A stretch of 45,664 nt of DNA, from contig LLZO01000003.1 in assembly GCA_001567545.1 (NCBI GenBank), forward strand, positions 1-45,664. Reading direction: 5' to 3'. Each line of letters starts with the position of its first letter. Position 1 is the stretch's first letter. Source of the stretch: Candidatus Tepidiaquacellales bacterium OLB5 (lineage in GTDB: Bacteria; Bacteroidota; Ignavibacteria; Tepidaquicellales; OLB5). The notes beneath the pieces were generated by a model. That model ran no database searches, was not told where the DNA came from, and saw only the letters and a list, made by a program, of their open reading frames with translations. Below are positions 34,013 through 37,027 of this stretch, piece after piece. Both the position numbers and the translations under genes were made by a program.

Positions 34013-34841
34013 TTATTTAATTTTAATAAATTCTTCCAAAGTTGATGCTTTCTCCCAGTATGTATTGAACAAGTCTTTCATATGCCCTGCATAATCTGAA
34101 TTTTTTATGATAAGATCTGCCTGTTTATGTTTCGGAACGTTTTTTATCTGCCGATAGATTTATAAAAACATTTTCTGTATCAAAAATTGAAACATTTGGT
34201 ATTTTAAAATCAGCAAGTTTTACTTTTTCACCGCCTTTTTGAAATAATTCACATGCTGCTATCAATTCATCGTTCAGATCTTTATCTCCGTTGACCTGGT
34301 AAATGGATCTTATTATACCGCCTTTTTTAATGAAGTTCTGCGCATCCCGGCTAAGTTCTTCAACTACAACCCTTCTTGGGCTGTACATACCCAGTATCTC
34401 TGACTTTGAAGCCAATACAAGCTCCATATACCTGGCTACGCGGTGTTTGTTGAAGCCCCGGATAAGCTGTATGTTTTTATCCGGTGTATCTGTTTTTGCA
34501 GATTCACTTTTATAGATCTGCTGAAGCTCTCCGAATGTTTCATTCAAGCTGGAAAGCTTGCTGTTAAAACTTTTTTTATAATCGCTGATAATTTTATCAA
34601 GAATTATCGCAGGGTCTATTATCTGGTAGTTAAGAATTGTATTGGTCTCAATTTCGTTGCAATATCCTTTATCAACAAATGATTTCAGAATATCATATAT
34701 CGAGTTCCTTATGATCTTCGCATCTTTGGCAATTTCTGATGCACTCATAGGGTTACCGCTTAGCAGTACTAAAAGTACTTTGGATTCATATTCCTTGAAC
34801 CCGAGCGACTTAAGTTTTTCTATTAAAAATTCCTTATTCAA
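34013..34841 (-). CDS. TrmB-family transcriptional regulator, frameshifted near its C-terminus
   Basis: N-terminal winged helix of the TrmB type: LKSLGFKEYESKVLLVLLSG, then MSASEIAKDAKIIRNSIYDI and VDKGYCNEIE. A coiled-coil-like linker (KSFNSKLSSLNETFGELQQI) joins a C-terminal domain (NIQLIRGFNKHRVARYMELV, SEILGMYSPRRVVVEELSRD). The raw frame ends at 34125 (KKRSET). Removing one base from the six-T run at 34140-34145 changes this to DKNVPKHKQADLIIKNSD and continues to GHMKDLFNTYW … EEFIKIK, 275 residues in all. TrmB regulators are mostly archaeal sugar-transport regulators; the effector here is unknown. It lies next to a candidate structured RNA, which is upstream of its start. Confidence 0.87.
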
Positions 34842-34924
34842 TATTGCTGTAGTTTAAAGCTACTGCAATATAAAATATATTTAAACTATTGTCAAGTCCT
34901 ATAATTAACTGGTTCGGTTAATTA

Positions 34925-34953
34925 AAAAAGCAGCCATAAGTTGGCTGCTTTTT
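34925..34953. terminator. Intrinsic terminator hairpin beside the TrmB gene
   Basis: AAAAAGCAGCCA (34925-34936) and TGGCTGCTTTTT (34942-34953) form a perfect 12-pair stem with a five-base loop. U tracts are present on both strands, longer on the minus strand. It would end a minus-strand transcript coming from about 35.2 kb, before the TrmB gene at 34841. Confidence 0.85.
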
Positions 34954-35190
34954 ATAAATAGCTAGGTCTAACAGAGGGCGATAAATACTTAGCGCAGCTT
35001 CCCTAACTGCAGTGATCACAATTGTTTCTCCCGCCCTTCAGAAGAGATCAATGAATCAAGACAGAGGCTGCTGCGCTTTATAATCTAAACAAAATTCAGA
35101 TGCTAATAAGTTCAAACCGGGGTTAATGCAGATCCATTATATTACCTCCGTTGACGCCTTTGGAACTTGACGTTAACCCCGGCAACAACA
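34925..35190 (-). ncRNA. Candidate structured non-coding RNA, family not recognised
   Basis: No open frame covers this region, yet it has several strong pairings. CCGGGGTTAA (35117-35126) and TTAACCCCGG (35173-35182) form a 10-pair stem. AGCGCAGC (34991-34998) and GCTGCGCT (35070-35077) form an 8-pair stem. CGCCCT in its loop (35032-35037) is complementary to AGGGCG outside it (34975-34980), which would be a pseudoknot. The region is richer in G+C than the flanks and ends on the minus strand at an intrinsic terminator. Not tmRNA, SRP RNA or RNase P by their signature sequences. Could be 6S-like, a riboswitch-like leader or an unknown RNA. Strand assigned only from the terminator. Confidence 0.5.
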
Positions 35191-35593
35191 CCAGCAAGAG
35201 CTTTTAAAGTACCTTTTATATATGCTTAAACACTTAAAGAACAATTTAAATTTCTCAGGTAAAAATAGTTTATAATTCAATAAATGCCAAAGATTTTTTA
35301 AATTGTTTGTTAAAAGCTGTTTTTTATTATTTTTTGGTAATTATGATTAATAAATGCTGAATTTTAAATTTTTTTAATAATATTATATGACAATAATCCT
35401 GTTTTGTTAAACAGATAAAATTTAAATTTATGTAAAATACTGTTTAGGCATAGATTTTTAAATGGTTTTGTTGAAACAAATTTTCAATATTATGAAGTTA
35501 TTTAATTAAATTTTTGTCTATTTATTAAAACCAAGGCTTTAAAAGTTATAATCAAACATTTAAAAAATTAAATTTTAAATTAACCATTAAAAA
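35191..35593. other. AT-rich spacer, no gene seen
   Basis: About 400 bases of very AT-rich sequence between the structured region and the next plus-strand gene. It probably contains promoters for both, but no box is convincing. No repeat seen. Confidence 0.5.
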
Positions 35594-37027
35594 ATGCGGG
35601 AATCAAAGCTAACAGAAATGGTAAAAGGCATAAGCCCGGCTGAATTCAGAAAATTCGGTGAATTCCTGAACTCCCCCTACCATAATAAAAGCAGAAAAAT
35701 AATCCAGCTGTATGAATTGATCAACTTTAATTATGATGAGTTTGATGCCAATGTAATTACAAACGAAAAAATCGCCAAAGCTATTTTCAGCGGTGAAGGT
35801 GATAAAGATCAGAATGTAAGAACACTTATCAGCAGCTTTACAGCGCTGCTTGAGGAATTCCTTATTATCGAAGAGCTGAATCAGAATCCGCTGCACGGCA
35901 AAACTTTCCTGCTGAAATCCCTGAGGGACAGGAACATTCTTAAAACCTTCGACATGGTTTCAAAAGAAATAACTGATATACAAAAAAAAGATTTCAACAG
36001 GAACACTGATTATTATTACAACGAGTTTTCCTTTAAAGAAACATGGCTTAATTACCACGGCGAAGATCTTGACATGGACCTTGATAAAAGCTACCAGGAA
36101 ATGAGCAATAACGCTGATTATCTTTTTATTGTCACTAAGCTTAAAATTCTTAATACTGTTATAAGCAGGAAAATACTTTCCGGCATTACGGTTTACAAAC
36201 AATACTGGGCAGTTGAAAATATACTGAAATATATCGAAAAGAATATTGATGACATCGAGACAAATCACCCGATAATTTATTCAGAATACAAAATACTTAT
36301 GATGGTGCTTGAACCCGACAGGGTTAAACATTTCCACGATCTTGAAAAACATGTATTCAACAACATATCTAAATATAACGAAGAAGAGCTTGAACAGGTT
36401 TATTATTCATTAAGCAATTTCTGCGTGAATAAAATTGCGCTGGGAGAAGATAAATTCATACACGAACTTTACAAGATACATTCCAATTTCGAAAAAACCG
36501 GCTTTTACTCTAAGAATAAGAACCTGCAGTATACTGATTTTATCGGGGTAATTATCTGCGGATTAAACATAAAGAATATTTCATGGGTTAAACATTTCTT
36601 TGAAACATACAAAGGCAATATTGCAAACGAAGTAAAACGCGATACCATAAATTTATCATCTGCCCTAATTGCGTTCCATGAAAAGAAATATAAGGATTGT
36701 ATCGGATATTTAAGCAAAGTAGGTTATAAATTCACTTATTTTTACCTCAAGTCAAAAGAAACACTTATTAAATCATATTATGAGCTTGATGAAATAGAAT
36801 CACTTGAATCTGTTATTGATGCAACCAAACATTATCTCAAAAGGCATAAAGAGCTGCTGTCAATCCATTATGACAGGTACATACTTTTCCTTAATTATGT
36901 AACCAATCTCACAAAACTTGATAAAAAACAAAAAGCGGAGCTTAAGATACTGATGAAGAAGCTGGATGAGAACAGGACCACCATTGCAAGGGAGTGGCTG
37001 ATCGAAAAAATCATTGAAATGAAATAA
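35594..37027 (+). CDS. Bacteroidota-type conserved helical protein of unknown function
   Basis: 477 residues, no signal peptide, almost entirely alpha-helical. The N-terminal ISPAEFRKFGEFLNSPYHNK is a signature I associate with conserved hypothetical proteins of Bacteroidota and relatives, in which SPY(F/H)NK and a nearby L-F-E/L-Y-E segment recur. The rest (ELEQVYYSLSNFCVNKIALG, DCIGYLSKVGYKFTYFYLKS) resembles degenerate TPR-like helical repeats. It may be a cytoplasmic scaffold; no catalytic site seen. Adjacent fmt is convergent, 10 bases away. Confidence 0.85.
   Translation: MRESKLTEMVKGISPAEFRKFGEFLNSPYHNKSRKIIQLYELINFNYDEFDANVITNEKIAKAIFSGEGDKDQNVRTLISSFTALLEEFLIIEELNQNPLHGKTFLLKSLRDRNILKTFDMVSKEITDIQKKDFNRNTDYYYNEFSFKETWLNYHGEDLDMDLDKSYQEMSNNADYLFIVTKLKILNTVISRKILSGITVYKQYWAVENILKYIEKNIDDIETNHPIIYSEYKILMMVLEPDRVKHFHDLEKHVFNNISKYNEEELEQVYYSLSNFCVNKIALGEDKFIHELYKIHSNFEKTGFYSKNKNLQYTDFIGVIICGLNIKNISWVKHFFETYKGNIANEVKRDTINLSSALIAFHEKKYKDCIGYLSKVGYKFTYFYLKSKETLIKSYYELDEIESLESVIDATKHYLKRHKELLSIHYDRYILFLNYVTNLTKLDKKQKAELKILMKKLDENRTTIAREWLIEKIIEMK

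Follow-up and report, generated by a model that had tools for sequence, protein, structure and literature searches.

A GC-richer island in the window, i.e. the whole 45,664-nucleotide stretch of DNA that was analysed, raises the question of whether it encodes a structured RNA and, if so, of which kind. The initial annotation had read it as a candidate non-coding RNA free of ORFs, with a 10-pair stem, an 8-pair stem and a 6-base loop-tail complement upstream of an intrinsic terminator. Each of them is indeed found on the minus strand at the place given. The GC content of the region is 0.39-0.435 vs 0.17-0.33 for its flanks, and the ORF search of the window revealed no ORF of at least 80 aa covering it. 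As judged from the sequence comparisons described below, the locus very probably encodes an untranslated RNA that has not been described before, and whose fold has been conserved by evolution in one family. The 10-pair stem and the remaining elements belong to two separable domains, named A and B. The features are the following.

35449-35475, minus strand: second, degenerate copy of the promoter upstream element (2 mismatches)
35260-35314, minus strand: promoter, TTTAACAAA, then TCTTTG, a 20-base spacer and TATTTTTA; 0 expected by chance in the window
34924-35255, minus strand: proposed non-coding RNA transcription unit of ~330 nt, bounded by the conserved promoter and terminator, with the start site deduced from the -7 box
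35114-35200, minus strand: domain A, a hairpin with a 10-bp stem (35173-35182/35117-35126) and a large invariant loop; match to covariance model R2
35142-35151, minus strand: invariant ACGGAGGTAA of domain A, Shine-Dalgarno-like, from comparison with relatives
34983-35080, minus strand: domain B, an irregular 98-nt hairpin with closing stem 35070-35077/34991-34998; covariance model R1, 12 of 15 family genomes
35027-35039, minus strand: domain B core, GAAGGGCGGGAGA, invariant but for one G>A in genome G013
34975-34980, minus strand: putative pseudoknot tail CGCCCT, the complement of AGGGCG in the core (35032-35037)
34924-34953, minus strand: intrinsic terminator hairpin and T run, AAAAAGCAGCCA-ACTTA-TGGCTGCTTTTTT, from sequence and fold
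34867-34895, minus strand: separate promoter of the downstream gene trmB, TTGACA-17-TATATT, with the same boxes visible in relatives

A conserved promoter and sequence-variable terminators delimit the locus

A 276-nt stretch of the minus strand folded better than its dinucleotide shuffles (z = -3.7; 0 of 200 were as good). The promoter resembles the published consensus for Bacteroidota, TTTG / TAnnTTTG (PMC7366714), and its spacer is exactly 20 bases in every genome in which the region upstream of the unit is assembled. When up to three mismatches were allowed, the extended promoter element was found at three sites in the whole genome, two of which are at the RNA locus. At the other end, a terminator is present 3' of domain B in 12 out of 12 genomes, located 70-140 nt from the core; these terminators differ in stem, and their sequences are unrelated between genomes. 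The conservation of the promoter, and of a terminator that is nevertheless variable in sequence, indicates a discrete minus-strand unit. Since the promoter is located at 35260-35314, the transcript would be ~330 nt long and probably not ~260 nt, the length given in the initial annotation. Past the RNA terminator, trmB is preceded by what appears to be its own promoter, with a palindrome. With a promoter upstream, a terminator after domain B and then a seemingly separate promoter for trmB, this RNA most likely has its own gene, of ~330 nt in this genome. The promoter and terminator that a stand-alone structured RNA should have are both recognizable in the sequence; the exceptions are G009, G005 and G011, which have a gene upstream of domain B.

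Terminating riboswitches with loop-tail pseudoknots share the anatomy of hairpin, pseudoknot and terminator. A compact conserved fold of this kind, ahead of a terminator and a regulator gene, might point to a cis-acting riboswitch or attenuator controlling the downstream gene through the terminator. We consider this quite unlikely, because trmB apparently has its own promoter and the palindrome beyond the terminator, the terminators are unrelated in sequence and at variable distance from the core, and no conserved antiterminator was seen. In addition, there is no consistent downstream gene: the gene encoding the TrmB regulator is replaced by fabI (FabI) in one genus, in G014. A riboswitch for trmB in particular was rejected for the same two reasons, i.e. 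the seemingly separate promotion of trmB and the change of neighbour in G014.

Compensatory changes support the fold of domain B

The closing stem of domain B consists of eight pairs, AGCGCAGC/GCTGCGCT (35070-35077 with 34991-34998), and the core has the sequence GAAGGGCG(G/A)GAGA, in which the G>A change of G013 converts a U-G pair to a U-A pair. Internal loops are small and there is no large central bubble. Domain B alone gave a fold z of -2.6. In the alignment of 12 domain B sequences 97.6% of the cells pair, and double-sided compensatory changes are present in 13 of the 31 pairs, vs 2.7 expected and with 0 of 500 shuffles showing as many. Although the sequences had been aligned by fitting them to the model, the key changes are also visible by eye. 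Control structures slid by 1-3 columns yielded 1-4 double-sided pairs. The closing stem is AACGCAGC/GCTGCGTT in G009 and G005, AGTGCAGC/GCTGCACT, partly rebuilt, in G013, and GGTATGGA/TCCATGCC, rebuilt with different sequence, in G014. Hence, the compensatory base changes expected of a stand-alone structured RNA, for which the initial annotation had proposed to align homologous intergenic regions, are strong in domain B.

The 10-pair stem of domain A, CCGGGGTTAA/TTAACCCCGG (35173-35182 with 35117-35126), has been replaced in sequence with pairing kept in G009, G005 and G007, and the ACGGAGGUAA of its loop is invariant. The domain A model matches in eight genomes of the genus; in G007 the domain was detected by motif at a contig edge, and G013 retains CGGAGGTAA immediately before domain B. 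Domain A has thus far been found mainly in one genus. A putative mini-ORF following GGAGGTAA was rejected by eye because its start codon is not conserved: a start codon at Shine-Dalgarno distance after GGAGGTAA occurs in some genomes, and in none of G002, G012, G009 and G007.

Parts of this anatomy are not striking in a single sequence. The domain A hairpin alone has an ordinary fold energy (z = -1.6), and the 6-base loop-tail match is weak within the window, as 11% of the shuffled tails did equally well. Both observations would suit chance hairpins without function around a terminator, a reading that is contradicted by the covariation in domain B and by its retention across three genera, and that we regard as scarcely credible. 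The case for an RNA rests on comparison.

A loop-tail pseudoknot is probable

The initial annotation had also proposed that the loop-tail complement forms a pseudoknot. In favour of this, GCCCT is located 58-62 nt after the start of the core in eight genomes, with GCCTT in G013, and the tail stands out as a conserved island beyond a spacer of variable length. On the other side, no double-sided covariation of the tail was found among the 12 genomes, and G009, G005 and G014 either lack the tail or have it shifted into the terminator. With its tail conserved in 8-9 of 12 genomes, the predicted pseudoknot is probable and in part supported.

The RNA matches none of the known classes tested

None of the 4227 Rfam families matched the window or four homologous loci at or above its gathering cut-off, and the matches below threshold were of the kind expected by chance (E above 0.2). 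This agrees with the earlier impression that the RNA could not be placed among tmRNA, SRP RNA, RNase P RNA or riboswitches. A tmRNA, with its tRNA-like domain and tag ORF, was rejected since both ARAGORN and Rfam were negative in the window, and RNase P RNA since Rfam was negative. Bacterial small SRP RNA (RF00169) is likewise a single-copy hairpin RNA; it was rejected because the true SRP RNA is located at another locus in 13 of the 15 genomes (G000:C265 in the present one). Together, the covariation, the conserved promoter and terminator and the lack of an Rfam match support the reading as a non-coding RNA. The Rfam search and the search for compensatory changes, both named in the initial annotation as possible refutations, turned out in favour of its reading.

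6S RNA (RF00013 and RF01685) was rejected as well. The 6S-Flavo RNA (RF01685) is a stand-alone hairpin RNA of ~100 nt from the same phylum, about as long as the present one, and in most members of the family neither of the two Rfam models detected a 6S RNA; the present RNA could accordingly be imagined to be a diverged, polymerase-binding 6S RNA. This is nevertheless improbable, given that both models fail on the RNA, that domain B lacks a large central bubble, and that 6S RNA has neither a conserved pseudoknot tail nor an apical core that is nearly invariant. Separately, G007 contains a 6S-Flavo-like RNA at another locus (L094:574-678; 50.7 bits with RF01685, which is below the cut-off); a search of other family genomes yielded no homologue of it.

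A parallel exists with orphan structured RNAs obtained by comparative genomics (e.g. PMC2864571), which are likewise covarying, independently placed, lineage-restricted and of unknown function; the present RNA differs in lying outside the 4227 Rfam families searched. In the literature on structured RNAs of Ignavibacteria we found nothing on this RNA.

The RNA is found in one family of uncultured Ignavibacteria

Nine further genomes of the genus, and one of another genus, contain similar DNA. The covariance model search detected domain B as a single copy in 12 of the 15 family genomes, which belong to three genera, and wherever assembled it adjoins the same divergent gene. Two of the three family genomes without it are incomplete (64% and 75%); in the third, G003, no close copy of the divergent gene is present either. 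Apart from one chance-level score of 24 bits, domain B was not found in the 29 other genomes of the order, among the remainder of the 294 class genomes or in 396 genomes of the phylum, and it had no match in viral contigs. Next to the corresponding gene in the order's other family, even a search with the speed filters off gave no B-like RNA (best score 16 bits). A scan of 85,000 species for the exact core picked up nine MAGs of Ignavibacteria, along with two contigs that are unrelated; the core-pattern matches outside the Ignavibacteria (a deltaproteobacterium and Gallimonas) were rejected as they fail the covariance model. The confirmed matches are limited to one family of uncultured Ignavibacteria.

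A gene for a secreted protein separates or precedes the two domains in relatives

G009 and G005 have the promoter, domain A, a secreted-protein gene and domain B in that order, so that the gene lies between the RNA domains (L015, L017), and in G011 such a gene is followed by domain B after a gap of 44 bases. In G002 and G008 the gene precedes domain A and has its own copy of the promoter; in G010, G004 and G012 a gene before domain A, also with its own promoter copy, was judged by position to be of this type. The protein carries a Por sorting tail (Pfam PF18962; match shown for the G002 homologue) and is sorted by the T9SS. Because a coding gene separates A from B in G009 and G005 and precedes both in others, the two domains are separable; it is domain B that has been retained throughout the three genera.

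This arrangement might mean that A and B are UTR elements of the secreted-protein gene, with A as the leader and B at the 3' end; the gene, once located between the two or ahead of them, would then have been lost from the window. Besides the gene orders of G009, G005 and G011, the second promoter copy of the window would fit this, since its equivalent in five relatives precedes the secreted-protein gene that is absent from the window. Against it, domain A is preceded by a second promoter, belonging to the unit itself, in G002, G008, G010, G004 and G012, with a terminator visible before that promoter in G002 and G008, and G013 and G014, from other genera, have no such gene and yet retain domain B, promoter and terminator. 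We therefore regard the UTR reading as unlikely.

Proposed function of the RNA

On balance, we favour a stand-alone non-coding RNA gene whose product acts in trans and whose domain B is bound by a dedicated protein. Transcription, action in trans, a protein partner and contact with the ribosome are the steps that we infer. Transcription would start near 35255 at the TTTG-N20-TATTTTTA promoter, run through domain A and then domain B, and stop at the terminator at 34924-34953. Domain B would fold into its irregular hairpin, with the purine-rich AAGGG loop probably closed by the pseudoknot with the tail, and its nearly invariant surface is most likely bound by a dedicated protein, through which the RNA would act in trans. 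Domain A would expose single-stranded GGAGGUAA, a stretch that might base-pair with 16S rRNA at its anti-Shine-Dalgarno end. Domain A may then be an accessory with a ribosome-binding-like loop, and domain B a protein-binding platform. A more specific version, in which the RNA forms a family-specific RNA-protein particle of a new type that docks through A on the anti-Shine-Dalgarno end of the ribosome, with B bound by its dedicated protein, and tunes translation initiation, is speculative and has a small chance of being correct.

Alternatively, the RNA could regulate mRNAs in antisense fashion, pairing with them by way of its purine-rich core or GGAGGUAA, given that G-rich conserved stretches are exposed and the transcript appears independent. 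However, sites complementary to the core were no commoner than those for a reversed control in 15 genomes, and much of the core is paired within domain B, which makes this hardly likely, although short seed pairing with mRNAs may occur. A partly paired core that is almost invariant, together with antisense sites that are not enriched, speaks for a protein or a ligand as the partner of the RNA rather than for extended base pairing.

Some observations are at odds with the stand-alone gene that we favour. The secreted-protein gene directly upstream of domain B in G009, G005 and G011 implies that B is there a 3'-UTR element or needs another promoter. The missing or displaced pseudoknot tail in G009, G005 and G014, and the failure to find B in the other family of the order, also count against it.

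The RNA adds a well-supported undescribed structured RNA to an uncultured lineage in which little is known of RNA regulation. Its small conserved core makes the search for a partner practical, and the coding gene between the RNA domains of some relatives is a natural test of the role of each domain.

Neighbouring genes

The palindrome upstream of trmB, ATTGCAGTAG...CTAC(T/A)GCAATAT (34841-34871), directly follows the trmB -10 box and is conserved in relatives; it is probably the operator for autoregulation by TrmB. The trmB frame of the window encodes 238 aa, vs 275-277 aa in relatives, and the frame shifts within an A-run of the minus strand at 34140-34145, which is a genuine frameshift or else an artefact of the assembly. 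The divergent gene (35594-37027) encodes a 477-aa protein without a Pfam match. This protein belongs to a large paralogous family, with 24 matches in this genome and up to 38 in others, and its paralogues adjoin secreted-protein genes in several places.
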